A stretch of 37,449 bases of DNA from Calditrichia bacterium (lineage in GTDB: Bacteria; Calditrichota; Calditrichia; Calditrichales; Calditrichaceae). The position numbers and the translations under genes are program-made. The stretch lies in the NCBI GenBank assembly GCA_026983775.1, contig JALSTK010000148.1, forward strand, positions 1 through 37,449, read 5' to 3'. The notes under the pieces were generated by a model. It had not been told where the DNA came from. It did no database searches and saw nothing but the letters and a program-made list of their open reading frames with translations. This document shows positions 24,144 to 35,449 of this stretch, in pieces (positions within the stretch are counted from its first letter, which is position 1; each line of letters begins with the position of its first letter).

Positions 24144-24551
24144 ATGGTTTCTGATTTAACACTGGAAGTAGTTACACCTTTTGGTAAAGCCTATTCTAAT
24201 GAAATCATAAGCTGCACCATTCCCGGGGAAGAAGGCGAATTTCAGATATTAAAGGGTCATGCAGCTTTAATTTCGTTAGTGAGTATTGGGCCTGTTAAGG
24301 TTCAGGAATCAGATGGTAAAACAGTTTATATGGCTGTGGGTAGCGGTTATTGTGAAGTGAAGGATAATCGTGTCAGGGTAATGGTTGAATCGGCTGAGCT
24401 TGCTGAACAGATTGATACGGAGCGTGCCCGTAAAGCAAAGGAACGGGCGGAAAAGCGTTTGCAGGAACACAAACCTGATGTAGATATGGATCGAGCGAGA
24501 ATGGCTTTAGCCCGCGCTTTAAACCGGATGAAATTGACACAGCTTCGTTAA
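24144..24551 (+). CDS. atpC: ATP synthase F1 subunit epsilon
   Basis: A 135-residue epsilon subunit with the N-terminal beta-sandwich (E-V-V-T-P-F-G-K, G-E-E-G-E-F-Q-I-L-K-G-H-A) and a complete C-terminal two-helix domain rich in Arg/Ala/Glu. A full C-terminal domain usually allows inhibition of ATP hydrolysis. It is separated from atpD by 69 bases, the longest gap in the cluster, and closes it. No clear intrinsic terminator follows. Confidence 0.94.
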   Translation: MVSDLTLEVVTPFGKAYSNEIISCTIPGEEGEFQILKGHAALISLVSIGPVKVQESDGKTVYMAVGSGYCEVKDNRVRVMVESAELAEQIDTERARKAKERAEKRLQEHKPDVDMDRARMALARALNRMKLTQLR

Positions 24552-24622
24552 TTTTGTCCTATTTTAAAGCTTATTATCCGAAAAATTCCAACCGTTTGCC
24601 CAGTCTGATTTTACAAATAACC

Positions 24623-24650
24623 TTGACTAAGCCCAAAATAATGTTAAATT
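24623..24650 (+). promoter_or_regulatory. Candidate promoter of the TPR/TolQ-TolR operon
   Basis: TTGACT (24623-24628) and TAAATT (24645-24650) are separated by 16 bases. The -10 is preceded by TG one base upstream (TGTTAAATT), an extended -10 arrangement. A transcript from about 24657 has a leader of about 37 bases. Together with the terminator at 35425 this delimits a unit of about 10.8 kb. Confidence 0.5.
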
Positions 24651-24693
24651 TAGGAAAACAATAATTTAGGGTTAATAAAATTAGGTCATCGCT

Positions 24694-27309
24694 ATGAAAA
24701 CAAGAACCCGGTTCTTTCTTTTCTCCCTGATTTTTATCATTCTTTCCATTTCGGTGCATGCCAATCCGCAGAATGATGCGTATTACAATTCCGCTCTCAG
24801 AAGTTACGTCCAAAAGCTGGTTACCCAGTTTAATTTTAATTCGATTGACCGGGAGCGTTTTTTGGTGCAGCAGATCCGGATGATTAACGAGGAAATTAAA
24901 TCCAGAATAACGGGAATTAATAAAATTCGTGAGAATTATTTTGAACGTTTACAAACCCGGTTAAATGAAATCCGGGCCTTAAAGAAACGCTTACCTCCCG
25001 GCGGTTCCAGTTCGCTTCATGTTTTTATCAATGAATTGGAGAAAAAAATTCAGGATACAATCGATGGCGGTATCATTGATTTTAAACGGCAACGGGTCAT
25101 AGAAGATGCCGTTCAACTTCTACATATTGCCGAAGAAATGGTGCAAATGGATCCCAATGCCCGATTTGAACAGAACCCGCGTTTCGCAAGCCATTTCCAG
25201 AAGACAAAAGCGGAATTCATTCAATCTTTTGGCCAGAGCAAAGCATTCCGCCCCTCTTCTTCTTCATCTACCAGGGCACATCCTACTATTTTTGATGTTT
25301 ACAAGGAATGGAAACAGACCGAATTAGTGAAATATGAAGTTCGTCTGACCGATATTCAAATCATTAAAAGAAAACTTTTACGAAACGCTACCATGGCCGA
25401 AAAAGAACGTATGTTCAGGCGTGAACTGCGTCAGGCCGGAGAGGCTTTTAACTTTGGATTTTATGATCTTGCAGAACGGTCTTTCGCTGAAATAATGCAT
25501 GCTTATAAAAACTTCGGTAATTTGGATGATTGCTTGTTTTATGAAGGTGAATCCGATTTTCTGCTTGGCCGTTATCATGCCGCGCAGAAGGCATTTGAAC
25601 AATTTGTAGTGGAATATCCCAACTCTCCCTATGTTGCCCGGGTATATGCAAGATTGGTTGAAATGGCCTATCATTTTGATGACTTCAATCGTGTCCTGGT
25701 TACCTATAAACAGATGCAGACCGTCGTTCCTTCCAGTGATGAAAATCAGGATAAGGCGGCCCTGATGGCTGAAATAGCCGCCTTGCGCCTCGGAGATTTC
25801 GGCCGGGTAGCCGAATTGGCCTTTAAAATTCATAAGGACTCTCCATTTTACCGGGAATCCCGTTTTCTCATGGCCGAGGCCTATGCCGGTTCTAATCAAT
25901 TCGATGAATCGGAAAAAGTCTTTAAATCTCTGATCAAGGAAAAAGGCGTAGACCCCCAGTTCCGCTTTACCGTACTTTTAAAATTGGGCTACCTCAATTA
26001 TGATCAGGGCAAATATTATGATGCTCTTACATATTTTGATCAGATTGGTGGCTATTACGGCAATTATGACCGGGTACTGATCGGTTATGCTTGGACCTAT
26101 TATAAAATGGAATTGGCAAAAGATAAGTCCGAAAAAAGAGACTTTTCAACGGCGAAAAAGTATCTGGAAATTTTACTGGATAATTTTTACGGCTCCGATT
26201 ATTTATTGGAAGCAAGGGCCTTATTGGGATACATTAATCAGCTTGAAGAGAATCCCGAAGCTGCCATTAGCAATTATCAGTATGCTTTCAATGCCAAGGA
26301 AGTTAAGGACTTATCCGATAATTTTAATCGGGAACGGGATAAACTGCGGGAAATGATGTCTACCGCAGAACAACTAAAGGCCAAAGCTCTGGAAAAAAAT
26401 AACAAATCCGCTTTTTATAAAGCCGATGAGACCGGTAATAAAATACGTCATCCTTTGATTAAACTAAGTTATATGGATCTCAGTTCTACCGGCGCCGCTA
26501 CCGGCAGAGAGGTGACTAAATTAAAAAACCAATTGCAAGAACTGGATCGTCTAAAGTCCATTGCTCAAAAGCGGGGTAACAAGAGTGCTGTTAAACGCAT
26601 CGAGCGCTTGCAACTTAAAATCTATCGGGCCGTTAATTCGATCAAGCCTGAAAAAGAATCTCTCCTGGGATATAATTATTTTAACGATCAACCTTTGGCT
26701 CGTAAAGTAAGTGTTTTGGATAACAAAAACACCAAGGTCAGGGCTATACGGCAGGAAGCGGAAAAGCAACGCCAGGGAATTGCCGCCCAGCTGGTCGAGC
26801 TCGATTTCAAAATAAAAGATGCCAAAGCCCGCAAGAATTATCGGGAACTGGTTCAACTTGAACTTACGAAAGAACACTTGCAGGATTTGGCTAAAAAGGT
26901 TGATTTTTTAAGTACACAGGCTTATTCCGTCCGTACGGAAAAAACCAATATCAGGCTGGATCACTGGGCGGATTACGGAGCCTTCGGAATGACGGATGTT
27001 CGCTTTGCCTTAAAAAACAAAAAAGCGCAGCAGATTGCCGATTTTCAGAATCAGATTCAGGCCATAAACGATTTTCTCGAGCTGCGTAAAAAAAATATCG
27101 AGCATCAAATCGCCCAGATCAACGATGCCATCACTCTCATGACGCGCCGCGTCAGGGAGCAAGAGCGCATTCGTAAACGGGAAGAGCTGAAACGCCAGTT
27201 TGAGGAAACCTATTTTGATACACACGACACAGAACTGAACTATAACCAGAATCAAAACACTACGGAACCTCCGAAGATTAATGAGGAATCGAATCAACCG
27301 AAAAAATAG
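24694..27309 (+). CDS. Large exported TPR and coiled-coil protein
   Basis: An 871-residue protein with a signal peptide cut after S-V-H-A (about residue 23). Three parts are visible. Residues about 45-200 are charged helices, likely coiled coil. Residues about 245-520 are a TPR/YbgF-like array, with units containing A-E-R-S-F-A-E-I, Y-H-A-A-Q-K-A-F-E-Q-F-V-V-E-Y-P-N-S-P-Y and F-D-E-S-E-K-V-F-K-S-L. Residues about 590-850 are a second long coiled coil. The tail is Asn/Glu/Gln-rich. The Y-P-N-S-P-Y type of TPR is the one seen in CpoB/BamD-like periplasmic proteins. As first gene of an operon with TolQ/TolR and a TonB-like protein it is probably a periplasmic scaffold. No enzyme motif is seen. 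Confidence 0.7.
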   Translation: MKTRTRFFLFSLIFIILSISVHANPQNDAYYNSALRSYVQKLVTQFNFNSIDRERFLVQQIRMINEEIKSRITGINKIRENYFERLQTRLNEIRALKKRLPPGGSSSLHVFINELEKKIQDTIDGGIIDFKRQRVIEDAVQLLHIAEEMVQMDPNARFEQNPRFASHFQKTKAEFIQSFGQSKAFRPSSSSSTRAHPTIFDVYKEWKQTELVKYEVRLTDIQIIKRKLLRNATMAEKERMFRRELRQAGEAFNFGFYDLAERSFAEIMHAYKNFGNLDDCLFYEGESDFLLGRYHAAQKAFEQFVVEYPNSPYVARVYARLVEMAYHFDDFNRVLVTYKQMQTVVPSSDENQDKAALMAEIAALRLGDFGRVAELAFKIHKDSPFYRESRFLMAEAYAGSNQFDESEKVFKSLIKEKGVDPQFRFTVLLKLGYLNYDQGKYYDALTYFDQIGGYYGNYDRVLIGYAWTYYKMELAKDKSEKRDFSTAKKYLEILLDNFYGSDYLLEARALLGYINQLEENPEAAISNYQYAFNAKEVKDLSDNFNRERDKLREMMSTAEQLKAKALEKNNKSAFYKADETGNKIRHPLIKLSYMDLSSTGAATGREVTKLKNQLQELDRLKSIAQKRGNKSAVKRIERLQLKIYRAVNSIKPEKESLLGYNYFNDQPLARKVSVLDNKNTKVRAIRQEAEKQRQGIAAQLVELDFKIKDAKARKNYRELVQLELTKEHLQDLAKKVDFLSTQAYSVRTEKTNIRLDHWADYGAFGMTDVRFALKNKKAQQIADFQNQIQAINDFLELRKKNIEHQIAQINDAITLMTRRVREQERIRKREELKRQFEETYFDTHDTELNYNQNQNTTEPPKINEESNQPKK

Positions 27310-27354
27310 TATCGTAATTTAGTGGTCATCTAAGTAAAACTTGGAACTATTACC

Positions 27355-30300
27355 ATGCAAATGAGATTTTATTTCAAGAATATTTTAAAAATAATCCCAT
27401 TCCTGATTTTCTGGATGGTCCTAGAATCGAACGGAGTGGCTTTCGCTCAGACGGGATCGGGCTCGAAAGGTGTTGACACGCTTTTTAAAAAGCTGTCCAC
27501 CGAAGATCTGATTAAAATTCGAAAATACTATAATTCAAAGGTTCAGAAGCTTCGCAACCAGGAAGAAATGTACCGAACCGAAGGCATGGATTGGAGCCAA
27601 ACCTTTTTAAAGGAGAAGGGGTCCAAGGTCAAAGACCGGGATAAACTGTATATCCGGCTGGCCGAATTCTATATCGAAGATGCCGACCGCTATTATGACT
27701 CCCAGGTGGATCAGTATGATTCTTTGTATGCGATCTATGAGAAGAAGCAGGATCAATTCGATCGAAAAGAAATCGAGGTAGAACCGACTCCGCCCGAATT
27801 CCCTAAGCACGACTATTCAAAAGCCATCTCTTTTTATGACCAAATTCTAAACGAATATCCGGGAAGTCAATATGCTGATGATGCCCTGTACAGTAAAGCC
27901 TGGTTACTGGAAAAAATGGACCGGGGTGAAGAAAGCCGAAAAATTTATCGCGAAGTAATCGACAAATATCCGGATAGCCGTTTTGCGCCCGAATCTTATA
28001 TGCGCTTGGCGGAATATTATTTTTCCCCCCGGGAAGATAAAACGAGCGAAGAACAACAGGTGGTTGAATTGCGAAAAGCGATTCAGCTTTATAAAAATGT
28101 TCTTAAGTATCGTAATTCCAAAAGATACGACGAAGCCTTGTATAAATTGGGCTGGAGCTATTACAAGTTGGCCAGCCGGGATCCGAAATATTATAATGAC
28201 GCCATTACTTACTTTGTGATGGTTGCCGATGATATCGACCGTGCTCAGAAATTAGACCCCCAGGCTAAAATATCCAACTTTGACGTCAAAGATGAAGCCA
28301 TTCAGTATATCGGAATCAGCTTTACGGATGATGCCTATACCAAACACGGTGTGGATAGAGCCCGGCGCCTTATCGAACGTATCGGAGATCGTCCCTACGG
28401 ACCGGAAATTATTCAGGCTATGGGACGCACCTATCAGAAGATCGACGAACCGGCCAAGGCTATTTATGCTTATCAAACCTTGCTTGATATGTATCCCTAT
28501 TATCCCAGTGCACCTGAGATTCAACAGAATATCGTACAATCGCTCTTTGCTTTGGGAAAGGATGCCGATGCCTATCAAGCCCGAAAGAATCTTTACGAGA
28601 AATATAATTCCAAGTCGGATTGGTATGCCCGATTGGATAGCTCGGATACACCCGATAAGGTGAAATACCTGACTGCGGCCTACAAATACAGTGAAGAGGC
28701 TTTACGTACCAATATTTTGATCGATTTACAAAAGGCCGAAGAGTTGCAAGCCAGTAAAAAACCCGCCCGCTCCGAATATGAAAGTGTGGCCGATCTGTGC
28801 AAAACATACCTGACTTTATTTCCTGCCGATTCCAATGCCTATGATGTGAACTGGTCGTATGCCTATTTACTGGATAGTCGATTAGGACGATTTGAGGATG
28901 CCTTTAACGAATATATCCGGGTGAGCAATGACTATTCGGAAGATTCGCATCGGGAAGATGCTGCTCTGAACGCCGTCGGTGTGGCGGATACGTTGGTCAA
29001 ACTTAAATTTGGTAAAGAAGATACGCTCAAGAAGTTTAATCTGGCCGATGTTGCCAAACTCAGTCCGGAAGCACTTACACCCGAAGAAACCCGTCTCATC
29101 GAAGCGTACGACAATTATATTCGCCTGTTTCCTTCGGGTAAATATACGCCTAATTTCCTGGCTGCGGCCGGTGGTATCTATTATAATCACAAAAAATTTG
29201 CCGAAGCGAAGATATATTTTCAAACCCTGGTAAAACGGTTTCCGGGAGCCGAGCAGGAAAGCTTAGCTTTGCGTTCCATTATGGATTCCTATTTTGCTCT
29301 GGGCCGCTTTAAAGATTCGGAGATGATGGCAAAAAGAATTCTTAATGAACCCAATGTATCCCAGGAACAAAAGACATTTGCCATGCAGCGAATGGGCCAG
29401 GCCATATTTAAAAATGCCGAGTACCTGGAAGAGCAGGGTGATTATTTTACAGCCGCCAGTGAATTCTACCGGGTATTTACCGATGCTCCGGAAGAACCTA
29501 AAATTGTGGAAACAGCTCTTTTTCGTAGTGGACTGGATTATCAAAAAGCCAAAGACTGGTTAAGAGCGATTAGTGTATATGATACACTGGCCATTCATTA
29601 CCCGAAATCAAAGTTTTCACTTCCTGCTTTGCAGAATATGGCCGAAGATTACAAAGAACTGGATCGTTATGTGGATGCTGCCAAAGTCTATGAGCGTATA
29701 TTTACGGATTTCAGAAAAGATAAGAATGCCGATGCCGCCCTGTATAATGCCGGTTTCTACTATAAAAAAGGCAAAGATTGGGAAAATGCGATTCGTATCA
29801 ATAAAGAGTATATTCAACAATACCCGGATCAATCCTATGCCGTCGATCTCTTCTTTGCCAATGCGGACCTCTATCTGAAATTAAAGAATGAGGTAGAGGC
29901 GAATAAGATCTATCAGGAATTTGCCCAAAAATATCCGGACGATCCACGCACGGTAACCGCTTTTTATGAACGGGGTAATTATTATCTTGAAAACGGTCAA
30001 CCGGAACTGGCAAAAGCGGAATACAATAAAGCCATCCAGCGCAGCGAGAATTTCAAAAAACAGGGTAAGAATCCCAATGGTTATATTGCAGGCGAGGCAG
30101 TTAACAAACTGGCCGAAATTTTACATAAAGATTATGCTGCCATTCAGTTGAAGCAACCGCAAAGCAATATCAAGGCCAATCTGGCCCGTCTGAGAAATTT
30201 AATGGGACAATTAAATGACGCCTATAGTAAAGTGCTGTCCTTCGGTTCTCCCCGAAGTTTCGAAGCTACCTATGATATTGCCCGTTCCTATGAAGAGTTT

Positions 30301-32148
30301 GCAGCGAAATATGCCAACATGGAAGTTGATCCGAATTTACCGGCGGATAAGCAATTTGTAGAAAAGAAAAAAATAAACGATGCCGCCGCTGCTCTTTATG
30401 AGAAAGCAGTGGAGGAATATAAGCAGGTTGTGGATAAAATACCGGTGATTGCCGAGAAATTGGGTGTTGACATGAATGCCACTACACCCGATACGTTACT
30501 GACAATATCTGCGGAGGAAGATACTTCAGCCGAAATGAGTAATCAAATCAAGCGGGCCAAAGAGATGGATTCAACCAGGACGATGGCCCGAAAATGGTAT
30601 GCCAAAGCTAAAGATAAAATTTCCGAATTACTCTATACCGAGGCATCTCTGACCACTCAGAATGTGGAACGAGCCGTAGCTATCCAGGCACCGCAGAAAG
30701 ATCCGGTTCAGCGATTGATCTTTAAAAGAGCTGTTTTGGCAAAGGTTGCCGCTCCGGCGATTGCTCAAACTATAAAAGCCCATATTCGTAATATTGAGGA
30801 AGGAAAAAAATTAGGTCTTTCCAATAAATATATCGAAGAATCCAAACGGCAAATTTTATTGACTTCTAATTTAATGTCCACTGAATTTGAAAAATTATCT
30901 TATTCGGCCCTGGATCAATTCAGGAAGAAAATAGATGAAGTGAAAAAGCTGGTGGAAAAAGACTTTGGTGCAAAAAATGCCCAGGGACTCGATTATTACG
31001 CCCTGGATAATGATGCCAGCCAATTGATTGATTATATAAAGATTCTGGCGGAACAGACCATCACCGATTATACAAATACACTTAAGCTTGCCGACGAACA
31101 TGGAATTAAAAACGATTTGGTCAGCAATACCCAGGATCGTTTGTTACGCTTTGCCCTGGAAATAGGTAACCAGATGCAGGCACTGGCCGATTCGTCCAAG
31201 AATATGAGTGCCTATTATAAGACTCGTTTTGATAGCACACAAAACTATAATTATGACGATGCAACCGGTTTCTTCGAAAATTATTTTTATTCTTTAGGTG
31301 ATAATTCCAAAGAAATCATGGATCAGGCTTTTCAGGTGCAGCAGGAATATAATATTCATAGTTTATGGGCCAATAAGTTACTGCTGAAATTAATCGAATT
31401 GGATCCGGCCACATACTCCGCCAATGTGGAAAAAGAAAAGGTGGAAATATTCAGCGATCCGAGCTGGAAATATTCCACGACCTACTTTAAAGAGGTCTGG
31501 CCGAAACCTGAATTCGATGACAGTAACTGGAAAAAGGTGCGTATTGTACCCAGTTTCCAGAACCAGTTTGCAAAATGGAATGTGGATCCACAGGCCATCT
31601 GGGTCAACAATAGCCAGCAACCGGCAGCCGATTCTTTACAGTCGGATTCTACCCTGTCTACCGATAGTTTGCAAACGTCAGGTATGGCCGGTACCGATTC
31701 TACGGCTATATCGACCGATTCATTAGCCATGGGTTCACCGCTTTCATCGACGGATACCCTGGTCTTTTTCAGGAAAAATTTTGAATTGAAGGGGACTCCC
31801 CTCGGCGGCGCTATCTATATTACTGCAGATGAAGATTTCAGGATTTATCTGAATGGTGAATATCTGCTGGATGACAGCCTGAATAATTATTCTGTAGTGG
31901 ATTCATTGGATTATTATACATTTGATATTTTCCTTAAGAAAGGTAAGAATTTAATTGCGGTTGATGTGGAAGATAAGGACCTGACCGCAAAGGGTTTAAA
32001 ATTTTATGCATACTTTGAATTATTACCCGCGGATATTACGGCTGCGGCCGAAGAAAAAGCTAAAGTAAAAAAGGTATTTGTCGATCCTACGATATTAAGA
32101 AGGGTGAACATACTTAGCCGTAATCGCATATCCCTAAAACAGAGGTAA
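27355..32148 (+). CDS. Giant exported TPR protein with C-terminal beta domain
   Basis: A 1597-residue protein with a signal peptide (cleavage after V-A-F-A, about residue 31). From about residue 35 to 1000 it is a long TPR array with many copies of the Y-P-x-S-x-[YF]-A pattern (E-Y-P-G-S-Q-Y-A-D-D-A, K-Y-P-D-S-R-F-A, H-Y-P-K-S-K-F-S). Residues about 1000-1360 are helical without clear repeats. Residues about 1366-1570 look like a galactose-binding-type beta sandwich (F-D-D-S-N-W, then F-F-R-K-N-F-E-L and D-F-R-I-Y-L-N-G-E-Y). This domain is interrupted by a Ser/Asp/Thr-rich low-complexity segment at about 1420-1468. It starts 45 bases after the previous TPR gene. A second in-frame ATG lies two codons in. 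A structural periplasmic role is inferred; carbohydrate binding is possible. Confidence 0.7.
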   Translation: MQMRFYFKNILKIIPFLIFWMVLESNGVAFAQTGSGSKGVDTLFKKLSTEDLIKIRKYYNSKVQKLRNQEEMYRTEGMDWSQTFLKEKGSKVKDRDKLYIRLAEFYIEDADRYYDSQVDQYDSLYAIYEKKQDQFDRKEIEVEPTPPEFPKHDYSKAISFYDQILNEYPGSQYADDALYSKAWLLEKMDRGEESRKIYREVIDKYPDSRFAPESYMRLAEYYFSPREDKTSEEQQVVELRKAIQLYKNVLKYRNSKRYDEALYKLGWSYYKLASRDPKYYNDAITYFVMVADDIDRAQKLDPQAKISNFDVKDEAIQYIGISFTDDAYTKHGVDRARRLIERIGDRPYGPEIIQAMGRTYQKIDEPAKAIYAYQTLLDMYPYYPSAPEIQQNIVQSLFALGKDADAYQARKNLYEKYNSKSDWYARLDSSDTPDKVKYLTAAYKYSEEALRTNILIDLQKAEELQASKKPARSEYESVADLCKTYLTLFPADSNAYDVNWSYAYLLDSRLGRFEDAFNEYIRVSNDYSEDSHREDAALNAVGVADTLVKLKFGKEDTLKKFNLADVAKLSPEALTPEETRLIEAYDNYIRLFPSGKYTPNFLAAAGGIYYNHKKFAEAKIYFQTLVKRFPGAEQESLALRSIMDSYFALGRFKDSEMMAKRILNEPNVSQEQKTFAMQRMGQAIFKNAEYLEEQGDYFTAASEFYRVFTDAPEEPKIVETALFRSGLDYQKAKDWLRAISVYDTLAIHYPKSKFSLPALQNMAEDYKELDRYVDAAKVYERIFTDFRKDKNADAALYNAGFYYKKGKDWENAIRINKEYIQQYPDQSYAVDLFFANADLYLKLKNEVEANKIYQEFAQKYPDDPRTVTAFYERGNYYLENGQPELAKAEYNKAIQRSENFKKQGKNPNGYIAGEAVNKLAEILHKDYAAIQLKQPQSNIKANLARLRNLMGQLNDAYSKVLSFGSPRSFEATYDIARSYEEFAAKYANMEVDPNLPADKQFVEKKKINDAAAALYEKAVEEYKQVVDKIPVIAEKLGVDMNATTPDTLLTISAEEDTSAEMSNQIKRAKEMDSTRTMARKWYAKAKDKISELLYTEASLTTQNVERAVAIQAPQKDPVQRLIFKRAVLAKVAAPAIAQTIKAHIRNIEEGKKLGLSNKYIEESKRQILLTSNLMSTEFEKLSYSALDQFRKKIDEVKKLVEKDFGAKNAQGLDYYALDNDASQLIDYIKILAEQTITDYTNTLKLADEHGIKNDLVSNTQDRLLRFALEIGNQMQALADSSKNMSAYYKTRFDSTQNYNYDDATGFFENYFYSLGDNSKEIMDQAFQVQQEYNIHSLWANKLLLKLIELDPATYSANVEKEKVEIFSDPSWKYSTTYFKEVWPKPEFDDSNWKKVRIVPSFQNQFAKWNVDPQAIWVNNSQQPAADSLQSDSTLSTDSLQTSGMAGTDSTAISTDSLAMGSPLSSTDTLVFFRKNFELKGTPLGGAIYITADEDFRIYLNGEYLLDDSLNNYSVVDSLDYYTFDIFLKKGKNLIAVDVEDKDLTAKGLKFYAYFELLPADITAAAEEKAKVKKVFVDPTILRRVNILSRNRISLKQR

Positions 32149-32154
32149 ACCCGT

Positions 32155-32484
32155 ATGAAGCCTGTACATGTATTCAGTACAATGATTCTGTTTTTTTGTA
32201 TCATGTTCACGCATCCTCTGCTGGCCCAGAATGCAGACAGCACCCAGGCCGGTAATCAGCAGATTGTGGAATTGGGAGCTACGGAGATTAAGATTGCGAT
32301 CGAGGCTCCTCAGGTAAAACTATTCACCAACCGTATTAAACCCGAATTCGATGAAGTCAATCTGGATAAATCGTTTCGCGAAGAAATTATCGGTCAGGGT
32401 GAACAGTTAAAGTTTGAGAACAAAGCGAAAAGTACAAAACCCGAAATCATAGACATTTCAAAATTAATTAGTAAACTAAGGTAA
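32155..32484 (+). CDS. Small exported protein of unknown function
   Basis: A 109-residue protein. A signal peptide (hydrophobic residues about 7-22, cut after L-L-A) is followed by a mature part of about 85 residues, mostly extended and charged: E-I-K-I-A-I-E-A-P-Q-V, then K-P-E-F-D-E-V-N-L-D-K-S-F-R-E-E-I, ending in a short basic helix. I do not recognise a family. It starts six bases after the giant TPR gene and precedes the TolQ homologue by 34 bases, so it is probably a periplasmic component of the same machine. Confidence 0.6.
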   Translation: MKPVHVFSTMILFFCIMFTHPLLAQNADSTQAGNQQIVELGATEIKIAIEAPQVKLFTNRIKPEFDEVNLDKSFREEIIGQGEQLKFENKAKSTKPEIIDISKLISKLR

Positions 32485-32518
32485 AAGAACAAATTAATAC
32501 TTAAGGAGGGATTTATTC

Positions 32519-33175
32519 ATGTTCTTAGCCCAATTTGGTGAAGCTTTTAAACCTTCTACCGAAGGTTCTTTATTCATGTACACGATTGCGCTCTTTGGGG
32601 CTATTGCCATTGCCATTGCAATCGAACGTATTTACTATATTGTCATTCGTTCGAATGTAAATGCCGACAGGTTTATGGGTGAAATACGGAAACTCGTTGC
32701 CGGCGGGAATATGGAACGGGCCATTCAGCTCTGTGAACAGGGAAAACAAAAAGCTCTGCCTTTTGTTGTACTGCGGGGTTTGAAAAGAGCCAATGAGAGT
32801 GATGCTCTGGATTTCAGGGCTATTCAGAATGCGGTTGATGAAGGAACACTGGAAGTGATTCCGCGTTTAAAAGAACGTACGAATTATTTATCTATGCTTG
32901 CGAACGTTGCCACTCTAACCGGACTGATGGGTACGATTTATGGTCTGATCTTATCCTTCCAGGCTGTAGGTTCTCAGACCGTTTCGGAAGCCGATAAAAG
33001 CCGCTTGCTGGCCCAGGGTATTGCAGCCGCAATGAATACAACTATTTTTGGTCTAATGGTAGCTATTCCTACCCTAATCGTTTACACCTATGTGGTCAAT
33101 CGTACGACGAAGATTATTGATGAATTAGACGAACATCTCGTTAAATTAATTAACTTGATTACCGGCAACCGTTAA
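32519..33175 (+). CDS. MotA/TolQ/ExbB family proton-channel protein
   Basis: A 218-residue protein with the three membrane helices of the TolQ/ExbB family: residues about 19-40, then after a cytoplasmic loop the conserved pair at about 125-149 (L-A-N-V-A-T-L-T-G-L-M-G-T-I-Y-G-L) and 163-190 (A-M-N-T-T-I-F-G-L-M-V-A-I-P). These form the ring that surrounds a TolR/ExbD dimer and converts proton flow into movement. A strong TTAAGGAGGG ribosome site precedes it. Two TolR/ExbD genes follow directly. The TolQ, ExbB and AglR subtypes cannot be told apart by eye. Confidence 0.9.
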   Translation: MFLAQFGEAFKPSTEGSLFMYTIALFGAIAIAIAIERIYYIVIRSNVNADRFMGEIRKLVAGGNMERAIQLCEQGKQKALPFVVLRGLKRANESDALDFRAIQNAVDEGTLEVIPRLKERTNYLSMLANVATLTGLMGTIYGLILSFQAVGSQTVSEADKSRLLAQGIAAAMNTTIFGLMVAIPTLIVYTYVVNRTTKIIDELDEHLVKLINLITGNR

Positions 33176-33203
33176 TAAAATAAAAAACTGAAGGATGTGA
33201 TCC

Positions 33204-33758
33204 ATGGCTTTTAAACCTTCATTACGCAGTAACAATGAAGAAGTCGATATGGAATTGGACATCCGTCCGGTAATGAACCTGATGGTTGTTTTAATTCCGC
33301 TTCTTATCGCCAGTGCAGAATGGGTGAAGCTCAGTATTATTGAAATTAATGTCCCGCCTGCCAAAACAGCCGGAGTCGGATCGGGTGAATCGGATCAGCA
33401 ACAGGTAAAAGAAAAACAACTTCATCTGGGGCTCAAGATAGCGATCGCTCACGAAGGGATTACTATTGGTAATGCGGTGGCATTATTGGCTGGTGACAAC
33501 GCAGAAGGCCCTACGGTGGGGCTTACCGCGGACGGCAAATATGATTTTGCCAAATTGCGTGAAAAATTAATTGAACTAAAGAAAAAGGTTCTGGGTAAAG
33601 GTTTTGTAGATGAAAACAGGGCGGTGATTACCGCCTCGGCTGATATTCCCTATCAAACAATCATCGACGTGATGGATAATCTGCAAACTTATAAAGACGC
33701 CGAAGGGAACGTTAAACCGCTCTTCCCGGAAATCAATTTCAGTAAAATAATGGACTAA
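33204..33758 (+). CDS. ExbD/TolR family protein with Asn in place of the channel Asp
   Basis: A 184-residue protein with a short cytoplasmic N-terminus, one membrane helix (about residues 22-41) and a periplasmic domain. In ExbD/TolR the helix begins N-x-T-P-x-x-D, with Asp as the proton carrier. Here it reads D19-I-R-P-V-M-N25, so the carrier position is Asn and the preceding Asn position is Asp. The codon at residue 25 is AAC. The periplasmic part is longer than usual and has a Gly/Ser/Gln linker near residues 55-70. It shares the opening M-A-F-K-P-S with the next gene, suggesting an old duplication. It may be a non-conducting partner in a mixed dimer; that is inference. Confidence 0.85.
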   Translation: MAFKPSLRSNNEEVDMELDIRPVMNLMVVLIPLLIASAEWVKLSIIEINVPPAKTAGVGSGESDQQQVKEKQLHLGLKIAIAHEGITIGNAVALLAGDNAEGPTVGLTADGKYDFAKLREKLIELKKKVLGKGFVDENRAVITASADIPYQTIIDVMDNLQTYKDAEGNVKPLFPEINFSKIMD

Positions 33759-33782
33759 AAATGAAGATGGGGTAACTATTCC

Positions 33783-34268
33783 ATGGCTTTTAAACCATCT
33801 AAATCAAAGAGGAACCTCGGTAAAGAAGAGGGTACGCTGAATATGAACTCAATGATGGACATGATGACCATCATTTTGCTCTTCCTGTTAAAATCATTTT
33901 CTACCGAGGGGGCATTGGTAACACCTTCTCAGCAATTGCGGCTCCCTGTCTCCACGGCTGCGGAAAAAGCCAAAAAGCAGGTTAGCGTATCGATTGCCAA
34001 AGATGCATTACTGGTAAATGATGAGCCTCTTATTTCAACCAATGAAATTCCAAAAGATCAGATGTTGATTCCCGCTCTGGCCATGAAACTTTCGGACTAT
34101 GCCAAGCAAGAACGCGATCTTGAAGTAGAGGTAGGTAAAGTGTTTAACCATGAGATCATCATAGAAGGTGATGAAAAAATACCCTTTGAATTACTTTTTA
34201 AAGTTATGTTCACCTGTAGTAAATCCGATTTTTACAAGATGCGACTTTTAACGATTAAAAAAGGCTAA
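33783..34268 (+). CDS. ExbD/TolR family protein
   Basis: A 161-residue protein, the second TolR/ExbD of the operon. After a basic N-terminus the membrane helix starts N20-M-N-S-M-M-D26-M-M, so the proton-carrying Asp26 is present in the expected place. The periplasmic domain (about residues 60-161) carries a V-S-V-S-I-A-K-D-A-L-L-V-N-D strand pattern and ends F-E-L-L-F-K-V-M-F-T-C-S-K-S-D-F, close to family norms. It starts 24 bases after its paralogue. One TolQ with two different TolR proteins is also the composition of the AglRQS motor of Myxococcus. Confidence 0.88.
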   Translation: MAFKPSKSKRNLGKEEGTLNMNSMMDMMTIILLFLLKSFSTEGALVTPSQQLRLPVSTAAEKAKKQVSVSIAKDALLVNDEPLISTNEIPKDQMLIPALAMKLSDYAKQERDLEVEVGKVFNHEIIIEGDEKIPFELLFKVMFTCSKSDFYKMRLLTIKKG

Positions 34269-34307
34269 AAAAGTTAAAATCTGCAATTAAAAAAAGAGTA
34301 TAGAAAT

Positions 34308-35396
34308 ATGCCAAGTGCACAACAAACTAAAAAAGCTACCGATGGCGGTAAATACAGGCTCCGTGCTTTTCCCAAGGAGTTCGAGAGGAATTTCTGGGAA
34401 ACGGCGGATAAGAGGTACTACCTTATCCTCATTACATCGTTTATCGTTGTCTATGGAATCGTCATTTATCTGGCTAATGTTAAATACTCCAAAGAACAAT
34501 TGGAAAGCCAGATAAGACAGAAATATATCCAGAAATTTTATCAGGCTGAAATCATCACCGAAACACCTCCTGCCAAAGAAGAGCAGGGAACCGGTTTGGA
34601 AACGACTGCCCAGGAACAAAAGCCTCAGACGGATCAGCGGGCGCAAAGGGATCAGGGAAAGCGAGCCGAGGTGCGGGGCCAGTCTGCTGCAGAACGCCGT
34701 TCAGCTGCCAGGGCAAGGGCTGCGTCCAGAGCCAGACAACGGGCCTCTATGGAGCAGGCGGTAGCCGGTACAGGGGTTCTTGCTGAACTTTCGGCAAGTG
34801 GCGGTGGCGGCACCGGGGAGGCAGTCTACGATGCACTCGGTGAACAAGGTAAAACCGGAGGTATGGGCAATTTGGATCAGGTCCTGAACGGTGTCGGTGG
34901 CTTACAAAGCGCCTCTGCTTCCAGTCGCAGGTCGCAATTGGGTGCCCGTAAGTTAGGCGGCGGGACCGGAGCAGGTGAAGCCGGTATTGACGATTTGATT
35001 GAAGGGGGTATTGGTCCTACCGGTTCGGCCACTGTTGCCAGACGCGGAAATTTTACGATCAAATTTACCAAGGGTAATGTGAGCGGTCGTGCTTCAAAAC
35101 AAACCTCCCGTTCGGCGGAAGCGATTGGAAGAATCATCAATACGCATACCGACGCTATTATGAGTTGCTATAAAAAGGAAGCCCGTCTTAATCCCAATCT
35201 AAAGGGAAGTTTAACCGTTATCTTTACCATTCGCGCCAATGGCCGTGTTTCCAGGATACGTTTTGGAAATTCAACCCTCAGAAACAGAAAAATCGAAGCG
35301 TGTGTGAAAAGCCGTATCCGCAGTTGGCGCTTTGCGCCCATCAATCCTAAAGAGGGGGATGTCACCTTTAGACAAAAATTTATTTTCAGCAGTTAA
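34308..35396 (+). CDS. AgmX/TonB-like energy-transducer protein
   Basis: A 362-residue protein anchored by one membrane helix (residues about 38-57) after a cytoplasmic N-terminus. A long Gln/Arg/Ala-rich segment (about 85-150) and a Gly-rich segment (about 160-240) should span the periplasm. The last 95 residues form an AgmX/PglI-type TonB-like domain: I-N-T-H-T-D-A-I-M-S-C-Y, then L-K-G-S-L-T-V-I-F-T-I, G-R-V-S and I-E-A-C-V-K-S-R-I-R-S-W-R-F. The two cysteines typical of this tail are present and may pair. The domain order fits a protein that carries motion from the TolQ/TolR motor toward the outer membrane. It is the last gene before the terminator. Confidence 0.82.
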   Translation: MPSAQQTKKATDGGKYRLRAFPKEFERNFWETADKRYYLILITSFIVVYGIVIYLANVKYSKEQLESQIRQKYIQKFYQAEIITETPPAKEEQGTGLETTAQEQKPQTDQRAQRDQGKRAEVRGQSAAERRSAARARAASRARQRASMEQAVAGTGVLAELSASGGGGTGEAVYDALGEQGKTGGMGNLDQVLNGVGGLQSASASSRRSQLGARKLGGGTGAGEAGIDDLIEGGIGPTGSATVARRGNFTIKFTKGNVSGRASKQTSRSAEAIGRIINTHTDAIMSCYKKEARLNPNLKGSLTVIFTIRANGRVSRIRFGNSTLRNRKIEACVKSRIRSWRFAPINPKEGDVTFRQKFIFSS

Positions 35397-35424
35397 AAAT
35401 ATACTATGAATAAAATCTCTCAAG

Positions 35425-35449
35425 AAAGCCGCCCGGAGCGGCTTTTTTT
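35425..35449 (+). terminator. Intrinsic terminator of the TPR/Tol operon
   Basis: AAAGCCGC (35425-35432) pairs with GCGGCTTT (35438-35445) around the loop CCGGA, followed by T's to 35449. Stem, loop and T-run are all standard. It lies 29 bases after the AgmX-like gene. Confidence 0.85.

Follow-up and report, generated by a model that had tools for sequence, protein, structure and literature searches.

A conserved TPR-TolQ-TolR-TolR-AgmX operon of Calditrichota and its relation to the Agl-Glt/Nfs core

The window that we analysed is a stretch of 37,449 nucleotides from Calditrichia bacterium (contig JALSTK010000148.1, here C148, of assembly GCA_026983775.1, a 4.03-Mb genome that is 99.5% complete). 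Between atpC and aspS, it carries seven open reading frames on the + strand (24694-35396), which almost certainly form a conserved operon that encodes one motor system. The first two products are large exported TPR proteins, TPR1 (24694..27309, 871 residues, with YbgF/CpoB-type repeats) and TPR2 (27355..32148, 1597 residues), followed by SmP (32155..32484), an exported protein of 109 residues that belongs to no known family. Then come a TolQ/ExbB-family motor subunit (32519..33175; MotA_ExbB, PF01618, 2.9e-24), two ExbD/TolR-family proteins, TolR1 (33204..33758; PF02472, 7.6e-13) and TolR2 (33783..34268; PF02472, 1.3e-14), and AgmX, an AgmX-type transducer (34308..35396; NF033768). The intergenic gaps are, in gene order, 45, 6, 34, 28, 24, and 39 bp. 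A hydrophobic segment that resembles a signal sequence opens TPR1, TPR2, and SmP; TolR1, TolR2, and AgmX have a single transmembrane (TM) helix each. A preliminary description, made from the sequence alone, had listed these genes and product families and had proposed a self-contained envelope machine with the TPR proteins as periplasmic scaffold and with one TolQ, two TolRs, and an AgmX, as in the Agl system; the recomputed gaps and the profile matches agree with that picture.

Conservation and boundaries of the operon

Orthologues of the operon TolQ (66-88% identity) are present in 36 of the 40 Calditrichota genomes and in all 23 near-complete ones, the other motors of these genomes being less than 36% identical to it. 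One of the four genomes that gave no TolQ match has a TPR2 fragment and a TolQ fragment at a contig edge, and the remaining three are 76-88% complete. The order TPR1-TPR2-SmP-TolQ-TolR1-TolR2-AgmX is invariant in 34 Calditrichota loci, as far as their contigs extend, and cannot therefore be ascribed to chance; in 18 of the 34, the entire operon is flanked by both atpC and aspS. Conservation of gene order in relatives, on which the preliminary description depended, is thus established, and it extends beyond the phylum. Profiles built from the Calditrichota operon proteins found all seven genes in a second small phylum (L079, L158-L161), where TolQ occurs in 8 of 9 genomes and where the operon adjoins aspS in L078-L080. 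Six of the seven genes, in the order TPR1-TPR2-TolQ-TolR1-TolR2-AgmX, were found in Fibrobacterota (L168-L171, L175, and L176), this order being partial or varied in L172 and L173. The profile matches are one-to-one, the TPR2 profile scoring 175 on the TPR2 gene of L168 and 21 on its TPR1 gene. A tblastn search of a plasmid collection with AgmX gave no match. A TolQ tree unites the TolQs of the operon across the three phyla, but we give this tree no weight: the node that joins them has a support of 0.31, and four Fibrobacterota sequences that we take to be paralogues fall inside the group. Two metagenome-assembled genomes that carry the operon, AUK261 (L051) and HKST-UBA01 (L078), are titled Caldisericaceae and Bacteroidetes; these titles look wrong, since the former groups with Calditrichota and the latter with the second phylum.

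The sequence gives good support to both ends of a predicted single transcription unit. Upstream, a terminator-like hairpin with a U-rich tail (24526..24559, + strand, 13 pairs, z -4.27) closes atpC (24144-24551) and the ATP synthase operon; downstream, the intrinsic terminator of the preliminary description, a G+C hairpin followed by a U-run, was recovered at ~35422..35449 (+ strand, 5' of aspS, -14.6 kcal/mol, z -1.7). The promoter is less secure: the promoter-like site reported earlier does exist as one or two weak 9/12 matches on the + strand at 24610..24650 (24623-24650 or 24610-24639), but matches of this quality are not significantly above chance in the region (33 observed versus 24.8 expected), and the promoter is therefore unproven. 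Downstream of aspS, one locus of the second phylum (L079:15109-20622) has an alpha-2-macroglobulin-type gene of 1838 residues with Ig-like domains.

Residue signature of the motor

The two TolRs differ at the position of the pore aspartate, which we anchored by alignment to D23 of E. coli TolR and D25 of ExbD. TolR2 has Asp in 56/56 sequences, whereas among 58 TolR1 sequences 51 have Asn, as the TolR1 of the window does, 7 have Gly, and none has Asp, these counts being of sequences rather than independent events and including a few near-identical or duplicate entries. The Gly type is that of the genus Fibrobacter plus one fusion protein. The proton-carrying axle Asp is thus found in TolR2 and not in TolR1, and it is kept in all three other ExbD paralogues of the window's own genome. 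In addition, the position of ExbB Glu176, which is Glu in E. coli TolQ, in E. coli ExbB, and in the two ExbBs of the window's own genome, bears no acidic residue in any of the operon TolQs shown. Taken together, a TolR1 devoid of the Asp, a TolR2 that has it, and a TolQ devoid of Glu176 lead us to predict a TolR1:TolR2 heterodimer that carries a single acid.

Gene fusions place TolR1 at the motor. Fibrobacterota loci L162-L167, L174, L083, and L084 contain a TolQ::TolR1 fusion, and one group of this phylum shows the order TolQ, TolQ::TolR1 (~435 residues), TolR2, AgmX. An unfused TolQ lies directly upstream of the fusion gene in the fusion loci inspected. Since a pentamer made solely of fusion proteins would hold five copies of TolR1, the retention of the unfused TolQ would fit the need of a 5:1:1 assembly. 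An alternative axle would be a TolR2 homodimer, with TolR1 as an accessory subunit or wall anchor. Building on the heterodimer, one may go further and see in the operon a distinct and ancient class of envelope motor, common to Calditrichota, the neighbouring phylum, and Fibrobacterota, with a 5:2 stoichiometry and an obligate one-acid TolR1:TolR2 heterodimer that would advance by 72 rather than 36 degrees per ion and so drive a TPR/glycan-binding complex of the outer membrane in a directional and asymmetric manner; we regard this extended proposal as doubtful.

The operon TolQ is one of four MotA/ExbB proteins encoded by the window's own genome, the others belonging to a flagellar MotAB set, an ExbB-ExbD-ExbD-TonB set, and a TonB-like-ExbB-ExbD set (the genes of the two TonB-type sets were named partly by reading, their TonB C termini by profile). 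At L086:9131-14409 (G000, contig C139), ExbB-ExbD-ExbD-TonB genes follow a gene for an S41-type protease and precede genes for a diacylglycerol-kinase-like protein and a YbgC-like thioesterase, the protease, kinase, and thioesterase having been named by reading alone; both ExbDs of this locus have the Asp.

Transducer, TPR proteins, and proposed mechanism

The C-terminal domain of AgmX is an AgmX/PglI domain (NF033768, 93.9 bits, cut-off 40), a TonB-like tip with two conserved Cys. AgmX also matches the GltG model NF033760, at 85.7 bits where the cut-off is 650 and over profile positions 320-645 alone, and, weakly, the GltJ profile. The N terminus consists of ~35 cytoplasmic residues with an FPKEF motif, conserved in most members, ahead of the TM helix, which a long low-complexity linker rich in Gly, Ala, and Ser separates from the tip. 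The TM His by which TonB and TolA bind their motors is absent from the AgmX of the window and from the other AgmX proteins shown, except that of L173. Two additional genes of this type were noticed. An orphan second transducer at L182:7023-7955 (G000, contig C52; 311 residues, NF033768 at 62 bits) has no motor of its own and lies beside a coaE-like gene; by analogy with GltG and NfsG, which share AglR, it may use the motor of the operon. In one Calditrichia metagenome-assembled genome, a second AgmX-like gene (L082:13153-14121, 26% identity) is inserted between AgmX and aspS. The small protein SmP has a mean column identity of 44% and a conserved core, ExPQV..RI.PEF..V...KSF..E, and is predicted to be mostly unstructured alone (predicted local distance difference test [pLDDT] 65, predicted template modelling score [pTM] 0.19).

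TPR2 ends in a galactose-binding-like beta-sandwich of the GH2/rhamnosidase type (residues ~1359-1563, 31429..32043, + strand), recognised by profile and by predicted fold. Profile matches were obtained to the rhamnosidases 3w5m (1.9e-6) and 6i60 (1.1e-4), and the last 503 residues, modelled by AlphaFold2 at a pLDDT of 81, retrieved GH2 enzymes in Foldseek at probability 1.00, with low TM-scores because the sandwich alone aligns. The sandwich holds a disordered insert of Ser, Asp, and Thr, and no catalytic domain accompanies it. The second phylum retains this sugar-binding-type domain, as do some Fibrobacterota (L173 and, weakly, L164); the genus-Fibrobacter-type TPR2s tested gave no match to it. 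In Fibrobacter, it is the N terminus of TPR1 that points to the outer membrane: this PorV/PorQ-like region, a predicted barrel joined to a TPR protein (L168:3633-4631 and orthologues), was recognised by NCBIfam at 7.6e-9, its scores of 33.9-35.6 bits falling short of the curated cut-off (90), whereas a search of solved structures returned nothing and Pfam nothing useful.

The Fibrobacter locus L168 connects the operon to a cultured organism. The computed masses of its OmpA, TPR1, TPR2, TolQ, TolR1, TolR2, and AgmX proteins (55.97, 83.87, 146.72, 23.02, 32.45, 18.24, and 32.45 kDa) correspond to those published for FSU_2396, 2397, 2398, 2400, 2401, 2402, and 2403 of Fibrobacter succinogenes (55.97, 83.84, 146.67, 23.06, 32.44, 18.24, and 32.452 kDa; PMC4619616). 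By order, mass, and isoelectric point, rather than by sequence record, FSU_2397-2403, within the cluster FSU_2396-2404, is the orthologous operon. Compared with Calditrichota, this cluster has an OmpA-family gene upstream, the PorV-like barrel in TPR1, no sugar-binding-type domain in TPR2, and Gly rather than Asn in TolR1. The seven proteins are 1.2- to 1.73-fold up on cellulose (PMC6851124), FSU_2396 and FSU_2397 were found in an outer-membrane-vesicle complex, and the cluster is highly expressed in the sheep rumen (PMC8092306), its genes being co-expressed (PMC6851124, PMC8092306). Recovery from vesicles is consistent with the PorV/PorQ-like region of TPR1. Published guesses treat the cluster piecemeal, with FSU_2400-2403 as a TonB-type cellodextrin importer, the TPR proteins as a surface scaffold, and the whole as a vesicle locus (PMC6851124, PMC8092306). 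Since the same gene order is found over three phyla, we propose that the motor and TPR genes form one unit, which joins TonB-type transport genes, TPR "scaffold" proteins, and vesicle proteins that these papers treated apart.

Our working model is that the operon probably encodes one proton-driven trans-envelope force machine. A TolQ pentamer in the inner membrane would enclose the TolR1:TolR2 heterodimer, in which TolR2 alone would supply the proton-accepting Asp. AgmX, anchored at the motor by its TM helix, would carry motion through the peptidoglycan by its flexible linker and engage the giant TPR proteins with its TonB-like tip. On the periplasmic and outer-membrane side, TPR1 and TPR2 would receive the force; TPR2 would contribute a glycan-binding-type domain, and the TPR1 of Fibrobacter would add a PorV-like outer-membrane barrel. 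The likely output would be that an outer-membrane or surface complex is moved or re-positioned relative to the cell wall, in surface transport or envelope upkeep, rather than nutrient import, and our confidence in any particular cellular output is low. Some points weigh against this model: Fibrobacterota loci L162, L163, L165, and L166 have no clear TPR1 or TPR2 orthologue beside the motor, in Calditrichota neither a TonB box nor a barrel was identified as a partner, and the TPR genes might encode a distinct scaffold that is co-expressed with the motor without being part of it.

Alternative functions and known systems

In the TolB-less Calditrichota, the operon might replace Tol-Pal, stabilising the outer membrane and coupling constriction to division with CpoB/YbgF-like TPR partners. 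We consider this unlikely, even though the two share a TolQ/TolR motor, a TonB/TolA-like transducer, and a YbgF/CpoB-like TPR protein, TPR2 matching YbgF at 125.9 bits (cut-off 90), and even though the operon is near-universal in Calditrichota and sits among housekeeping genes. With the full TolB model, full-length TolB is absent from the three Calditrichota genomes G000, G005, and G029, which show only propeller fragments, and from four genomes of the second phylum. The window's own genome has no TolB_N match and gives only propeller fragments with TIGR02800; marginal TolB_N matches in 16 other Calditrichota genomes (22-28 bits) were rejected as TolB, no full-length protein having been found in the three genomes tested. 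However, 8/8 Fibrobacterota genomes sampled hold the operon together with a near-full-length TolB, so that loss of Tol-Pal cannot explain the operon there; occurring both with and without Tol-Pal, the operon is not simply a Tol-Pal locus. It also differs from Tol-Pal by its two TolRs, by the Glu that E. coli TolQ has and the operon TolQ has not, and by the absence of TolB and Pal, the window's contig giving no PF00691 (OmpA/Pal-domain) or TolB_N match. The higher expression of the F. succinogenes proteins on cellulose likewise speaks against this function.

We judge an Agl-Glt-like machine for gliding or surface motility to be very unlikely. The motor count and transducer type are those of Agl-Glt. 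Moreover, Agl-Glt, like Agl-Nfs, moves polysaccharides of the cell surface (PMC3858216), and the glycan-binding-type domain in TPR2 is in keeping with this. Against this, the motility-specific Group A parts of Glt (GltA, B, F, H, I, J, and K) are confined to Myxococcales and Bdellovibrionales, the core alone having been judged insufficient for motility (PMC3169522), and Caldithrix abyssi, which tumbles only occasionally, possesses genes for flagella and type IV pili (PMC5317091); flagellar genes are also present in the window's own genome.

Finally, import across the outer membrane by a TonB-ExbB-ExbD system, suggested by family-level similarity and by up-regulation of FSU_2400-2403 on cellulose (PMC6851124), is more improbable still, since none of the seven genes encodes a TonB-dependent receptor, AgmX has no TonB/TolA TM His, the own genome has two other TonB-type loci whose ExbB and ExbD residues TolQ and TolR1 have not kept, and TPR genes are constant partners in an operon kept across a phylum of differing lifestyles. 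A cellodextrin importer as the general function was rejected, the operon being phylum-wide and present in the non-cellulolytic peptide fermenter C. abyssi (PMC5317091). We therefore concur with the preliminary description that the locus is neither a standard Tol-Pal nor a standard TonB system.

A likeness exists to the TPR-tolQ-tolR-tolR-vWA clusters of the Planctomycetes-Verrucomicrobia-Chlamydiae (PVC) group, which also combine a TPR gene, a TolQ, two different TolRs, and a single-TM transducer (PMC12204202), but their vWA transducer has an SHLS/His motor-binding motif and AgmX lacks that His. The closest relative is the Agl-Glt/Nfs core, and the layout and the shared transducer domain suggest that the proposed force machine probably works like it. 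This core (aglR, aglQ, aglS, gltG, gltC, gltD, and gltE, plus one extra gene) is described as a stand-alone seven-protein system of unknown function, possibly a basal transport machinery, and is reported in non-myxobacteria, including one Fibrobacteres genome, with no report from Calditrichota in this literature (PMC3169522, PMC3858216). Since this core was described in 2011 and 2013, and since proteomic and transcriptomic studies had already detected the Fibrobacter version of the operon (PMC4619616, PMC6851124, PMC8092306), the suggestion in the preliminary description that the motor is new does not hold in that form. That description had not noted that TolR1 has lost the Asp, that TPR2 has a sugar-binding-type domain, or that the operon extends to other phyla; what we newly report is the TolR1/TolR2/TolQ residue signature, the TolQ::TolR1 fusion beside an unfused TolQ, the TPR2 beta-sandwich, and the PorV-like barrel of Fibrobacter TPR1. 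An isolated guess thereby becomes a defined, phylum-wide machine with homologues in cultured F. succinogenes and in Caldithrix.

Both systems unite in one operon one TolQ, two TolRs, a TonB-like transducer tipped with the AgmX/PglI/GltG domain, and large TPR proteins. They differ in that AglQ and AglS are both described with the pore Asp (PMC9389320), which TolR1 lacks, in that AgmX misses the large N-terminal part of GltG, and in that three TPR proteins there face two plus SmP here. NCBIfam returned no GltC, GltD, or GltE model for the operon proteins, whose TPR profiles match generically. Since AgmX scores below the GltG cut-off, TolR1 is devoid of the Asp, and TPR1 and TPR2 are at most putative relatives of GltC, GltD, and GltE, we regard the operon as a variant of the Agl-Glt/Nfs kind rather than a member. 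Whether two TolR-type partners heterodimerise is an open question for AglQ and AglS (PMC9389320), for which the TolR1/TolR2 signature provides a residue-level prediction. The distribution of the operon also bears on the origin of the Agl-Glt/Nfs core: in two phyla the operon is conserved next to aspS in a way that looks vertical, which is not easily reconciled with a core that arose in Gamma- or Deltaproteobacteria and reached Fibrobacter by transfer.

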